Positions 42,152 through 49,298 of a stretch of 64,000 nucleotides of DNA are shown piece by piece; within the stretch, counting starts at the first letter, position 1, and the number at the start of each line of letters is the position of its first letter. The notes under the pieces were generated by a model. That model worked only from the letters and a program-made list of their open reading frames with translations. It had not been told where the DNA came from and did no database searches. This stretch comes from Utricularia gibba (lineage: Eukaryota > Streptophyta > Magnoliopsida > Lamiales > Lentibulariaceae), in assembly GCA_002189035.1 (NCBI GenBank), contig NEEC01000002.1, positions 1,860,001 through 1,924,000 of the forward strand, written 5' to 3'. A program made the position numbers and the translations under genes.

Positions 42152-43070
42152 TCAGGTATTTGCAGGTGCATTCACTGGAGCAGGTACAAATTGTTGGCTG
42201 ATGCGTGTACCTGAAGAATCCTGAGCTCTTATGCCAAAATTTTGAGAAGGTACAACAATGACTTGTGAGGAAGTAGCCACAAAGTTGCTCTGCTGAGTGG
42301 TCACTGGAGCGAGACTTATATGTGGTGCTGGAATCTTTGCTGAAGCAGGAGCATATAATGCTGCCCTGACAACATCAGGCGTCAATTCTCTCTTGCAAGC
42401 TTAAGAGCATTACAAAACTCAGGCCGACCAAGAAAACCCACCCGATTCTGGTGTCCAAATGCCTGCATCTGAAACTTAATGGAGACATTAGAGGGATGCC
42501 TGTATGTCTTAATATATAACCGCTCTGATCATCAAAATGAGATAGAAAAAAGACTTGAAAGAGAAGCAAAATGCTGCATATGTCCTCTTCCTCATACGAA
42601 GTTAGTGAAATATGAAAGCAATGAAACCAATCCAAACAACGCTACCCAATAGATCCATTCAATTCAACTTATCAAAACATTGTTGAAAACTTCACATGAA
42701 AGTAAATAATGTCCAAGGCAATCTTGAAGCACGTAGTGATGAATGCATTGCTTGTTAGTCCATAACTCTTAGATGAATCATCGGCAAAGCAGAATGTAAA
42801 GCGATATGAGAATCTGGGTAAGAATAACTCATCCAGAATACGAGGAAGTTTAAAGTGTCAAAACACTTTCACATATTCTATCAGATCAACTTTAGCTAAT
42901 CTGGGACACAAGCCAAGCTCGAATCACAACGAACACACATTCAACAAGGAAAGAAGCCAGCACGGAAACAACCATTTTCTGCAGAACTGATCAACACCTC
43001 GTTAACTTGTAACCTCGGAAGAATGCAACGGCATCAGTTCCACTGATCCCGCATCTCGATCCAAATCAGC
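42152..43070 (-). pseudogene. EH-domain (EH1/Pan1-like) protein gene fragment
   Basis: Remnant of the N-terminal EH domain of a plant endocytosis protein. On the minus strand, 43,070-43,050 reads ADLDRDA; a frame change gives GISGTDAVAFFRGYKL, followed by a stop. After an intron-like gap, 42,467-42,385 reads FGHQNRVGFLGRPEFCNALKL. The usual VTVAQSK-like segment is missing and a frame change follows. 42,385-42,152 then reads LTPDVVRAALYAPASAKIPAP and SQNFGIRAQD, as in intact EH1 proteins, ending at a stop. No start codon, no second EH domain and no coiled coil are found. Some breaks could be sequence errors, but the stop and the missing parts indicate a dead fragment. Confidence 0.72.
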
Positions 43071-44750
43071 CCTCAGTGGCGCCCATTTGCAAAGTTTCCC
43101 CAGCGATTAAAATGGCCGAACCGCGATGCAGAATAGGGGGACTACTTCCGCCGCAAACCAAGTTGACATCAAGTTGGTTCGCGGGAAAATTGAGAATCGA
43201 GTCGAAAGAATTCCGCGGACAGGTTCAGACTCCGCCACAGCCTGATGCCCCCATTTTTTTCGTATTCAAAGCCGATTAGATTCAGAACACGTTCCTGCAA
43301 TTCAGCCCAAATTACAAGTTGATCTAGTGGCACCTGATAGTTGTTCCGGGTGCAGGAGTACATGGGCTTGATCCGCTTCTTCAGAACAACTAAAGTCACC
43401 CCTTTTTTAATGCATCAATTTAGCACTAAACTTCTCTAGTGTCTACAGAACTCCAAGAATACCCAAAGATATTCTTACATCTCAGTTTTAGCACAGGCAG
43501 ATGAGTCCTCATATCTAAAAGATCAGGTTTTGCACCAAATACAATGAAGGGGATTCGCCTTTTAAAGATAGAACTAAGTTCACATTTCCTTCCTGGTGAT
43601 GAAGGTAACACCAACAACAAAGGGAAGGAATGCCTCCCACAATTCAACTTTGCAAGGCCTGATGTCAACTGTGTTCCTAGTTCAGAACCCACGAAGCATT
43701 TACTTATCGTGCAGGAAAAACGACCGGATGAAAATGCCCCTGTCCCTACCCAGCATTTCCCATGACAACAGAGAACATCGGGTTTCTTCTCTGAAACCTG
43801 ACCTGACTGCAAAGACCTTCGACCAGAAAGCACCATGTTCATGGATTTTTCATACGAAAGCATGATGGAAAGATTTTGCAGAAGACCTTCTGAACATATG
43901 TGGGCCCTACATTGACGAGAAAACCTTCTTAACCCAAAATAGCGTGTTTAATATTAATTAATTATATTTCCACCGACACGTAACATAATGATAGAGGCGA
44001 TGGAGATGAGAAAAGGTCGTTCAAGTCCACAGCACACGCCTAGACTTTGGAAAATTTGAACTTGTCCTTGTGCACACAAACTCCAAGACCAAGTCAATTT
44101 TTTTAATTTATAAAAACATGTATTTTAAAATCATATAAATTATCAATATACGCATTATGAAAACCTATTTATTAAATATATAAATACGAATGATATGATT
44201 TTTACTGTAGATTTTATGAAACGAATTGCTCCAAGTAAAATAAATAAGAATATTGAAATAAAAAATAAACATAATTCATATCATATACACACGTTCATTG
44301 AAATAAATTATCCATATACGTGTTTATTTAGGGTGTGTTTGGTAGCATATTATAATTAATAATGTGTTTTGAGTTATTTGTGTTTAGATAAACATGTATT
44401 ATATGATTAAAACTAAATTTTATTTGGTATATAGATTTTGCATATGTACATTTAAAATAATACTATATTTGATAGATATGTCTAAAACAAAAAATTTATA
44501 AATTAAGTTGTTTAACAAAACCTATCTAAAATTTGGTTTTTGCAATATTTAGTTCTAAGTGTTTTACAATAATTTTGTAAAATATTCGTGTATTTTTAAA
44601 TTAGTTCATTAAACATATATTATTATTAACACATAAACCAAGCAATAAAATATTTAATAAGTGTAAACCATTATCACTAAATTATTTAATTTTCTATTTT
44701 TGTATAATGGAAATTATAAGAATACGTGTCTACGGGGGTGAGAGTGCGGG
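43071..44750. other. Spacer upstream of the kinase gene
   Basis: A 145-codon minus-strand frame (43863 to 43426) has no recognisable motif and is not called. Bases 44,100-44,690 are AT-rich. No supported gene. Confidence 0.45.
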
Positions 44751-44758
44751 TATTTAAG
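44751..44758 (+). promoter_or_regulatory. Possible TATA element of the kinase gene
   Basis: TATTTAAG sits 146 bases upstream of the kinase start codon, at the switch from AT-rich DNA to GC-richer leader. The position fits a core promoter; the match to consensus is only moderate. Confidence 0.35.
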
Positions 44759-44903
44759 TGAAGGTGCTGCGGTTCTTCCGAGTTCCTACCGCGGGCCGAC
44801 CAACCGCTTTCATGCGCGTTTCCTCGCTTGTTCTCGGGATCTCTCCTCGGCAAACCCTCGAGGCTCGAGCAGCAAACTTCCGGGAACTGCAGAGGAGCCA
44901 CAG

Positions 44904-46829
44904 ATGGGAAACTGCTGCCCGAAGCCCGTGAACAATCGCCGGGACACCGGAGGGGTCTACTCTCGCAGGGCTCCTGGTAACGAAAATAGTGTTTCTTGTG
45001 CTTCGAATCACGGTCATTTGAGTAGCATCTTTGTGTGTGCTTCGGCCTCCTTTCAGCCCGCGCTAATGGAGTCGTACAAGAGAATCGCACACAGTCACCG
45101 CCTGAAGAAGTTGCTAATGGAGGCGTGGAAGGGAAAATCGTCACTCCTAATCTCAAAATGTTCACGCTGCAGGAGCTCAAAACTGCGGCCAAGGATTTCA
45201 AACCGAATTCTCTTCTAGGAGAGGGCGGATTTGGCCGGGTTTTCAAGGGATTCGTGGACGAAAGGACTCTTGCGCCTTCTAAATTCGGAATTGGAATGCC
45301 GATCGCCATCAAAAAGTCTAATCCTGATAGCGAACAGGGGTTCAAGGAATGGCAGGTAACTATATTTTTTCATCGTCATCTTCATATCACGGAATGAAAC
45401 CTCTGTCAGGGATTATATGCTTCACAGTGGTTTAAAATGATATGAGAACTTGCCCACTTGAGATTTTTGGAGAATCACTTGTTTCAAATTTGTTGGTTTT
45501 GCAGACAGAAGTTAAGTTTCTGGGTAAATTCAGCCACCCAAACCTTGTTAAACTCATAGGTTATTGCTGGGAGGATAACCAGTTCCTCCTTGTCTATGAG
45601 TTCATGGCTAAGGGAAGCTTAGAGAATCACCTATTCAGGGGTAAGTAAAACCATTATAAGGTATAAGGAAATGATATTCGAGTGATGAAGTTACATATGA
45701 AACTGCAGTGGGTAGTGTTGGAGCAGAGACATTGACATGGAAAACAAGAATGAAGATAGCAATTGGTGCAGCTAGAGGGCTAGCGTTTTTGCACTCTACC
45801 CATAAAAAAGTTATCTATAGGGACTTTAAGGCCTCCAATATCTTGTTAGATGAGGTGACGAATGTTTCTTCATTCTTAATATTTGTTGTATTTAATGCTA
45901 TGCTTTCTGATTCTGGAGTTGCCAGGTTTCATATTCTTTGAGTAGCATTCGTTTTCTAGGTTTCAGCTTTTTGGTGATAGAAATCCGACGCAAACTTTCT
46001 GATTTTCAGATTACCAGGTTTCTTACGTTTTTTGTGTGGCATTCTTTCTTCTCATTCTCAGCATGATGATGATAGAAATTGAATGCAAAACATTCTGATT
46101 CTGTAGGTGCCAAGTTTCTGATCTTTTTCTCCGTAGCATCCCTTCAAAAAATCTCAACTTGTACATACTGCACGTTTTCTCGCGTTGTTTCACAGTCTCA
46201 TCCTGCTCTTGATTGTTATGACCATAGGAATTCAATGCAAAACTGTCTGATTTTGGGCTTGCCAAATTTGGTCCAGAGGAGGGAGAATCCCATGTCACAA
46301 CCAGGGTCGTCGGCACAACCGGGTACGCCGCGCCCGAGTACCTTTCCACTGGTAACACTCATTTACAAACCCTTCACTTACTGCGGAAGATCCAAAACAT
46401 GGCGCTGAGTTTGTCTGCGGCACAGGGCATTTGTATGTAAAAAGTGATGTGTACGGGTTCGGAGTGGTTCTGCTAGAAATACTAACCGGGCAGCGAGTGC
46501 TTGACGCGCAGCGGCCGAGCAAGCTGCTGAACCTGCTGGATTGGGCTGTCCCTTGCCTGCGTCAGAAGAGCAAGCTGAAGAAGATAATCGACCCTCGTCT
46601 TCTGGGGCAGTGCCCTTCGAGGGCAGCCTGCGCCACCGCCCAACTCATCCTTGAATGCCTTGAGCAGAACCTCAAGCTTCGCCCCAACATGGACCATGTC
46701 TTGAACACGCTGGAAGACATCAGCTGCATTCCGATGAGGACAAAAACGCCCACTGAAGGCGGCCGCATCGACAGGGTTGCAAACAACACACGCCCACCCC
46801 CTCGATCCGCCCTCTACGGGCCGCCATAA
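44904..46829 (+). CDS. Receptor-like cytoplasmic kinase (RLCK VII / PBL-like)
   Basis: Membrane-tethered Ser/Thr kinase of the class that relays receptor-kinase signals. Exons are 44904-44976, 45057-45355, 45505-45640, 45709-45854, 46228-46351 and 46426-46829, in phase, giving 393 residues. MGNCC supplies a myristoylation Gly and palmitoylation Cys residues. The pre-kinase [17 protein letters not shown] is RLCK-VII-like. Kinase motifs: GEGGFGRV, the IAIKK lysine, [15 protein letters not shown] (YRD catalytic loop), [18 protein letters not shown] with the activation segment [13 protein letters not shown], and [16 protein letters not shown]. All catalytic residues are present. Intron 4 contains decayed copies of the exon 5 edge, described separately. 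Confidence 0.94.
45889..46120 (+). repeat. Tandem decayed copies of the DFG-exon edge inside kinase intron 4
   Basis: The start of exon 5 (46228 on: gaattcaatgcaaaactg, then tctgattttgggcttgcc) recurs upstream at about 45,889-45,930, 45,976-46,022 and 46,071-46,120. Copy 1 translates as [13 protein letters not shown], copy 2 as [11 protein letters not shown], and copy 3 is degraded. Copies 2 and 3 keep the preceding gatag acceptor. About 45 bases after each copy are also shared (gtagcatt / gtggcatt then ctttctt-like), so the unit is about 95 bases. Spacing between acceptor-like sites is 95 and then 152 bases. Confidence 0.8.
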
Positions 46830-47480
46830 CCAGCCTCCCCTTTGAATGGGGAGGGTTTCATGTGTGACACGAGGGTAAGTTTGCTCTGGACAGATTTGCA
46901 TATTTCTGTTCGTAATCGTTTCATTTTATTTTTAGGGGTGCATTGTAATTGTAATTTTCCTTCCAAAATAAAAAAAATAACGTATTGTATGATCCTGATC
47001 CAAAAAAATTAGATTTTGTCAAATGGGTTTGGTATGGAATTTGTACACTTATTGCATTTTCAAGTAACTATTTTATTTAAGTTTGAGTTTATGGATTTAT
47101 AAGTTAGTTATATAAAATAATAAAAGTGTTCGAATTGCGATTTTAAATTGTTTATTGGGTTGAAGACAAAACACATTTTCTTGTTTTTCATGGGCATATG
47201 TACGAAGTACAAAATTAATATAGACAGTGTCTTAGATAAGAACCCATTTTCGTTTTCATTCTCATTTTCCTGTTTCTTTCATCCTTGAGAACGAACAGCT
47301 TTGAGCTTTGTGCAGATGCATTCTTTGGAAAATGGCAGTTCAAGACAACTATTTCGTCATTTACATTTCAGGTATGTTCCTGGAATCCCATGTGTGTGTT
47401 CCCTTGAGCATCTTTCGGTGTAATATACTTCATTTCTCGTGCAGATTACAGAAACATCCAGTGCAGCTGCCTTGTAAGAC
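46830..47480. other. Spacer between convergent kinase and PPR genes
   Basis: Contains the two 3' UTRs and AT-rich DNA. No coding frame is recognisable. Confidence 0.5.
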
Positions 47481-49298
47481 TCATCTCATGGTCTTAACAT
47501 TATGTTCGGAGATGACGGACGTTTCATTCGCAACGTCACATTCAAGTGCACTGCTGCTGCTGCAACCTGGAAGCTTCTTTGCTCCAAGACTCACCATCGT
47601 CGATCTTAGCTTCGTTGCATCCTCCCATCTACTTGCTGCTGCGTAAGCGTTGGCTAGCAGCGTCTGACTCCAAGAATCACTGGACTCTACTGCACCAAGT
47701 TGCTTCGCGATACGTTCAGCGACATCAACACTTCCGTAGTTCCTACAAGCACTAAGCAGAGCACCGTATAGTGGGATCACAATCTTGTTCTCTTTACCAG
47801 GAACGCTATTTATGAGCTTTTCAGCTTCATCCAAAAGTCCAGCTCGAGCGAGAAGGTCTACCATGCATCCATAATGCTCCAGCTTCGGCTCTATCTGATA
47901 AGCCTCACTCATTGAGGCAAAATGTCTCCGACCTTCCTCTACTAGCCCTCCATGGTTGCAAGCGCTCAACACACCAATGAACGCTATGTCATCAGGAAAA
48001 ATACCAGCTTCTATCATTTCTGAGAACAACTGTAAAGCCCCAGTTGCATTTCCATTCATAGCCAATGCAAATATCATTGATGTCCATGATGCTGTATCTT
48101 TCTGGTTCATTTGATGAAACACTTGCAATGACTTGTGTAAGCAGCCACATTTGGCATACATCTCAACAACAGCAGTGCCTATCACAGCATCAATTGTAAT
48201 CTTATTTTCTAACAAGTAATCATGAATCCATTCACCTTGTTCTAGAGCCCCTAATTGCGCACAGCCAGTAAGTAATGCCACAAGTGTATATTTGTCTGGC
48301 TTTACCTTCTCCATCTGCATGAGCCTAAACAATTCGAATGCATCATCAATCCTATTAAACTGTACATACCCATTAATCATTGCTGTCCAAAGAACAAGGT
48401 CTCTAACAGGACTACTATCAAACAATGCTCTTGCTCCATCCAAATCACCAATATTTACATATGCAGTGACCATACTAGTCCAGCACGCAACGTCTTTTTC
48501 CTGGTTAGCATCAAATAATCCCCTTGCCATGTCTAGATCCCGACTCTTGGCATACATATCCAACAATGCATTCCTGATTACATTTGTGATTCCGAGATGG
48601 GTAGAGACATACTTGTGAATCTCACGTCCAAGATCAATATTTCTTACAGCTGTGCAAGCAGATAAAGTGCTCACAACTGTGGCCTCATCAGGGAGGATAC
48701 TTGTCTCAGCTCTCATTCTCTTATAAACACCAATAGCCAGCTCAAACCTTCTGTTCTTCACAAGACCAGAAATCAAGACATTCCATGAAATTAAACCTCT
48801 AGTAGGCATTTCATCGAACAGTTTATCTAAGCTCTCAAGGAAACCCAACTCCCCGTACATATCCAAAACCGAAACGCAAACATATTGATCATACAACATC
48901 CCACTCTTCAATGCAAACCCATGAATCGTCTGTCCTTCAAAAACTAACCTTAATCTCCCTAGAGCCTTAAAAACAAAAGGGTAAGTGTAATTATCAGGCC
49001 ACAATCCCTGTACCCGCAATTCGTCGAACAAGAGAAGCGCTTTCTTGCAAATTCCAGAACTCACAAGCGCCTTGATCATCACATTATATATGAACAAGCT
49101 CGGGCGCGCAACTCGCGCTGCAATACGCTCAGCGTACGGCAAATTCTCCATTGCTGTGAAAGCCACCAGCTTGTGTAAAACGTCGATGTTGTCGTGTAGG
49201 CCATGTCGGTAGACCTGAGCGTGGATTTGCAGTAAATGGATCGATGATGCGCATGCTTTCAGGAGATGTATTGCTGAGTTCTTGGTCAATAGAACCAT
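47481..49298 (-). CDS. PLS-class pentatricopeptide repeat protein, E type (At1g31430-like)
   Basis: Intronless, 605 residues. PPR proteins of this class bind organellar RNA in a sequence-specific way and take part in C-to-U editing. After an N-terminal LLKACASSIHLLQIHAQVYR segment, PPR motifs run to about residue 500, including PSLFIYNVMIKALVSSG, RGLISWNVLISGLVKN, KDVACWTSMVTAYVNIGDL, RDLVLWTAMINGYVQFNRID and KDTASWTSMIFALAMNGN. They alternate in P, L and S forms. The C-terminus has E1/E2-like motifs (YGALLSACRNYGSVDVAERI, then LLANAYAAASRWEDATKLRS) and stops without a DYW domain, so it would need a DYW partner to edit. Targeting to mitochondrion or plastid is expected, but the N-terminus is not decisive. 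The frame is intact. Confidence 0.92.
   Translation of the reverse strand: MVLLTKNSAIHLLKACASSIHLLQIHAQVYRHGLHDNIDVLHKLVAFTAMENLPYAERIAARVARPSLFIYNVMIKALVSSGICKKALLLFDELRVQGLWPDNYTYPFVFKALGRLRLVFEGQTIHGFALKSGMLYDQYVCVSVLDMYGELGFLESLDKLFDEMPTRGLISWNVLISGLVKNRRFELAIGVYKRMRAETSILPDEATVVSTLSACTAVRNIDLGREIHKYVSTHLGITNVIRNALLDMYAKSRDLDMARGLFDANQEKDVACWTSMVTAYVNIGDLDGARALFDSSPVRDLVLWTAMINGYVQFNRIDDAFELFRLMQMEKVKPDKYTLVALLTGCAQLGALEQGEWIHDYLLENKITIDAVIGTAVVEMYAKCGCLHKSLQVFHQMNQKDTASWTSMIFALAMNGNATGALQLFSEMIEAGIFPDDIAFIGVLSACNHGGLVEEGRRHFASMSEAYQIEPKLEHYGCMVDLLARAGLLDEAEKLINSVPGKENKIVIPLYGALLSACRNYGSVDVAERIAKQLGAVESSDSWSQTLLANAYAAASRWEDATKLRSTMVSLGAKKLPGCSSSSALECDVANETSVISEHNVKTMR

Follow-up and report, generated by a model that had tools for sequence, protein, structure and literature searches.

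Intron 4 of a protein kinase gene of Utricularia gibba carries three decayed copies of the 5′ edge of exon 5, placed head to tail as adjacent direct copies upstream of the real exon edge. We consider it very probable that an intron that was once short was lengthened by serial tandem duplication of a segment of about 95 nt, in which the intron tail is joined to the first 42 nt of exon 5.

The host gene and its repeat array

The gene lies in a window of 64,000 nt, the whole stretch of DNA that was analysed. Its joined exons match Pfam PF07714 and PF00069 (protein kinase), and the kinase domain is unbroken across them. In a listing of 120 of the 7,985 matches, many of the best named homologs are flowering-plant kinases of the PIX13 or NAK type. 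A tree was built from 20 rows (the focal kinase, 13 paralogs and six of the 120 listed homologs); in it the focal kinase groups with a Genlisea aurea protein (98/98) within the PIX13 clade. Homolog placement and kinase domain fit an RLCK-VII (PIX13-like) kinase, labels that follow in part the source names of the homologs. The features discussed below are the following:

45709..45854, + strand: exon 4, catalytic loop; start placed from the reading frame and a ctgcag acceptor
45855..46227, + strand: intron 4, 373 nt, phase 0, gtgacg ... ccatag; position and phase as in the paralogs
45888..45929, + strand: edge copy 1, lacking an acceptor AG; retention of the intron would put it in frame with exon 4
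45930..46021, + strand: repeat unit 2, an intron-tail piece, gatag at 45976-45980 and edge copy 2 at 45981-46021
46022..46117, + strand: repeat unit 3, an intron-tail piece, gatag at 46071-46075 and edge copy 3 at 46076-46117
46118..46227, + strand: last intron tail, exceeding those of units 2 and 3 by about 57 nt, with the true acceptor catag at its end
46228..46351, + strand: exon 5, placed by translation; its first 42 nt are the probable source of the copies, from a comparison of exon-5 heads

The real exon-5 edge occupies 46228-46269, and a 41-nt core stands in register at 45900, 45992, 46088 and 46240, with 61-71% identity to the reference copy in the other three copies. Over the exon edge (41-42 nt) pairwise identity is 66-76% and K2P distances are 0.29-0.51, with wide errors on 41-42 sites; differences between the copies and exon 5 are spread over all three codon positions, in small numbers. 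The first-pass annotation had described three decayed copies of this edge with a basic period of about 95 nt; the copies themselves are borne out by the register and by the shuffle tests given below, and the period holds for the first two steps (92 and 96 nt) but not for the last (152 nt), where about 57 additional nt precede exon 5. These roughly 57 nt of the last intron tail (46118-46227) have no counterpart in units 2 and 3. As had also been described, copies 2 and 3 keep their gatag, and translation of copy 1 in the frame of exon 4 gives LSDSGVARF. Copy 1 has GTA at the place of the gatag, and its translation then runs into a stop. This open frame carries little weight, since its chance expectation is roughly 7% (0.22 x 1/3): frame 0 was open for 28 codons in 4459 of 20000 shuffled introns, before a further factor of 1/3 for register.

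Statistical support and source of the copies

The six pairs of copies were compared by local alignment score with 2000 dinucleotide shuffles per pair. Five pairs were matched by 0/2000 shuffles each, and the score of copy 1 against the real copy was reached in 1/2000, so that the self-similarity of the intron exceeds that of shuffled sequence in every pair. A control scan covered 207,652 bases in 43 sequences of the same genome, namely the window and 42 loci, which are mostly kinase loci and thus a non-random sample; low-complexity 44-nt queries were skipped, and L001, L002 and L004 were excluded for overlap with other pieces. At least three neighbours of such quality were found for only 8 of 13,077 queries, three of them in the focal array and five in locus L028. 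A chance likeness of T-rich intron sequence might be argued from the shortness of the matches and from the silence of Tandem Repeats Finder, which reported no array in 43000-49000 at a minimum score of 30, presumably because the copies are too diverged; the shuffle counts and the control scan, however, leave this reading next to no credit.

The five queries in L028 mark a second diverged tandem array in a kinase locus (L028:950-1650; G000:C304 near 2046043), whose steps measure about 159 and 183 nt; an NQML..SKKHG...A.G.L-like stretch is repeated on its minus strand.

The focal intron was further compared with 13 paralogous loci, hand-picked from a whole-genome DNA search and among further matches listed. 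Ten of these have an intron 4 of 66-139 nt with no clear self-copy; in L037 the intron, missed by motif, measures about 70 nt by eye. Two RLCK paralogs, L042 and L045, have no intron 4, and their catalytic-loop and DFG coding sequences are joined directly. In shuffle tests that keep base composition only, the best match of the intron to its own exon edge was reached in 23-456 of 500 shuffles for the ten paralog introns (lowest in L034) and in 0 of 500 for the focal one. The copy array is absent from intron 4 of the ten measured paralogs, which within this set of paralogs marks it as a derived state.

Among 14 exon-5 heads, the focal head is the nearest to every copy, with 31, 30 and 32 of 42 columns matching for copies 1, 2 and 3, respectively, against 19-29 of 42 for the paralog heads, and the source is therefore local. 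An ectopic source in a paralog was rejected on the same comparison. A dispersed repeat or transposon was also considered and rejected: a whole-genome DNA search (100 Mb, 516 contigs; very common words are skipped) returned only the locus itself and exon 5 of one paralog. All copies have TTT at a place where the focal and Genlisea kinases share Phe, Paulownia has Leu and Rehmannia has Ser; Phe stands there in 10 of 119 homologs, so that it is not unique to the focal lineage. Judged from these sequence comparisons, the copies most likely come from the focal gene itself. The array, the shuffle tests, the paralog introns and the nearest-head comparison together uphold the earlier proposal of repeated local duplication of an exon edge.

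Extent of the repeat unit and growth of the intron

The duplicated unit reaches into the intron. Units 2 and 3 are similar over their intron part too (score 50, 0/2000 shuffles), and both contain an intron tail with its AG as well as an exon head; the tail of copy 1 is shortened and lacks the AG. The real copy and unit 3 have in common about 10 intron nt before the acceptor. The likeness of the last intron tail to units 2 and 3 was reached by 422 and 122 of 2000 shuffles, respectively, and is not significant; the tails are also linked by a 12-nt motif family, of a kind that the tool itself describes as often due to chance. Subtraction of three units of about 95 nt from the 373 nt of the intron leaves, as a rough figure, about 88 nt, which falls inside the 66-139 nt of the paralogs.

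A larger unit can be imagined, in which the whole intron was duplicated with both exon edges, the tail of exon 4 included, and the upstream copies were trimmed later. The last tail, at 110 nt, is indeed about the size of a whole intron, and one multiple alignment matched the exon-4 tail to the beginning of unit 2. However, of 2000 shuffles each, 1996, 1854 and 1586 equalled the similarity of the exon-4 tail to the starts of units 2, 3 and 4, respectively, so that the exon-4 tail, performing no better than shuffles, was rejected as part of the unit, and duplication of the whole intron appears quite unlikely.

Serial duplication of the shorter, boundary-crossing unit would have proceeded as follows. 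In a short intron like those of the paralogs, unequal exchange or slippage during replication would have duplicated in tandem, more than once, some 95 nt that begin within the intron and end at codon 14 of exon 5. The copies, their order along the intron, their register and their nearest source are observed; the mutational event, how many steps it took, and the order and age of the duplications are what we infer from the array. As the upstream copies hold only 42 nt of exon 5, splicing to them would break the reading frame. Only the last copy runs on into the rest of exon 5, so that the other copies could decay. The old protein would be restored by joining the old donor to the last acceptor, so that the upstream copies would become intron and decay neutrally. 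In sum, the intron would have gained length and several spare AGs, mostly functionless. Since intron 4 stands at the same place and in the same phase in the paralogs, it is not new. The array is local and old, and most likely neutral.

The copies had also been considered as a fossil of exon birth. This part of the earlier description finds no support, since an acceptor is missing from copy 1 and those at copies 2 and 3 do not share the frame of exon 5. An origin as a nascent exon, or as mutually exclusive exons at the DFG loop, could appeal to the ends of copies 1 and 2, which read ccag/gtttc with a donor-like AG/GT, and to a second in-frame DFG stretch in 2 of 120 homologous gene models (P0024 and P0107; unverified). 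On the other side, copy 1 encodes DSG and has no acceptor, copy 2 has lost one base, which shifts its frame, and as an exon would measure 37 nt, and copy 3 encodes DSV and has no GT at the donor place, all of which makes such an origin very improbable.

In P0024 (Eucalyptus globulus) and P0107 (Tanacetum cinerariifolium) the second in-frame DFG lies 72 and 127 residues after the first, respectively; these stretches are much larger and undecayed, and are either real duplications or model errors. The two unverified models may thus represent larger duplications of the DFG region in other plants. Copies retained in homologous proteins were looked for and rejected: among the 120 listed of 7,985 matches, 116 show a normal spacing from catalytic loop to DFG, out of 117 with both motifs, the one exception being a two-kinase protein, and the remaining three, with motifs unmatched, are normal by eye; P0024 and P0107 are among the 116.

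Splicing consequences and known duplications

An in-frame TAG stands directly before the GAA at 46228, so that an unbroken kinase can come only from the acceptor that ends at 46227. This true acceptor (46226-46227, gaccatag) is weak in comparison with the mostly cag-type sites of the paralogs. In a small acceptor model, built on 25 paralog sites gathered by motif and scored on its own training sites with no cross-validation, its score is 2.6, where the training sites range from 2.3 to 14.9. AGs were scored from about 45875 on; among the 15 upstream ones eight exceed the true acceptor, five of them at 5.5 to 6.1, and two of these five lie within edge copies 3 and 2, at 46107 (6.1) and 46010 (5.7), respectively. 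For the gatag remnants the scores are low, at 1.0 and -2.4. An acceptor at copy 2 would lie 247 nt upstream and one at copy 3 152 nt upstream, both out of frame with exon 5; reading from the former meets a stop after 33 codons, and from the latter 80 translated codons are open in another frame. Judging by their sequence, copies 2 and 3 may act as putative decoy acceptors. Since the true acceptor is weak and stands below 8 of the 15 upstream AGs, the model makes leaky splicing, or mis-splicing, plausible, though not mainly through the gatag remnants.

Two functional readings go further. In the first, the region would serve as a decoy: a share of transcripts would splice to upstream AGs, lose the frame and undergo nonsense-mediated decay, which would tune the dose of the kinase. 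The low score of the sole full-kinase acceptor, the higher scores of 8 of the 15 upstream AGs, the position of two high-scoring ones (46107 and 46010) inside edge copies and the TAG before 46228, which every upstream acceptor read in the exon 5 frame meets, speak for such a role. It is nevertheless unlikely, given the low scores of the gatag remnants, the small acceptor model scored on its own training sites and the absence of an unusual RNA fold (z +1.10, with folding as good or better in 85 of 100 shuffles). In the second, which we regard as quite improbable, the serially duplicated acceptor region and a weakened true acceptor would together form a leaky switch, in which competing upstream AGs, two of the best of them inside the old edge copies, set the dose of the PIX13-like kinase. 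RNA structure hiding the decoys was rejected, as nothing was seen beyond shuffles, and no known RNA family reached its gathering score in 44500-47500.

Tandem duplication as the source of the array has counterparts elsewhere. The first-pass annotation knew of no described case of this form; that view has to be given up, as a boundary-crossing duplication in potato provides a close precedent. In the potato RdRp gene PGSC0003DMG402000361, a tandem genomic duplication spans an intron-exon boundary (Ma, Lan and Niu 2016, PMC4974935), and the same paper mentions a further tandem duplication, of 83 bp, within the first intron. The potato unit, likewise from a plant, resembles the present one in joining the 3′ side of an intron, acceptor included, to the 5′ side of the next exon. 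At the DNA level the two cases work alike. They differ in that in potato one young copy is still partly exonic and a new intron arose, backed by RNA-seq (PMC4974935), whereas here three old copies lie wholly inside a lengthened intron. In Drosophila, tandem duplication and intron sliding cause novel intron positions (Lehmann et al. 2010, PMC2891723). There too, the duplication is local and one copy turned into intron sequence, but what was duplicated is coding and carries an AG/GY proto-splice site, and the intron takes up a new position, whereas here the position is unchanged. Fission-yeast introns that each cover two or four tandemly duplicated stretches (Zhu and Niu 2013, as cited in PMC4974935) share with the Utricularia intron the presence of several tandem exon-derived copies within one intron; their unit, as cited there, is 24 bp of exon with AGGT and without an intron part, whereas the present unit includes the intron tail. 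Tandem genomic duplication is treated as a source of intron change in a review (PMC3443670) and likewise by Lehmann et al. (2010, PMC2891723).

Searches of open-licence literature brought up no description of the same gene or of a threefold array of such form. What the present case adds to those already known is the absorption of several serial copies into an existing intron. It is a known kind of DNA scar and no new system, mostly ordinary intron evolution that happens to be nicely preserved, and it leaves known principles unchanged. Its value is that of a readable example of intron growth, in which a boundary was duplicated several times; as the last copy alone is complete, the protein stayed the same, and the other copies decay into intron. 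The intron is also a natural setting in which to test how the splicing machinery chooses the last among several related acceptors.
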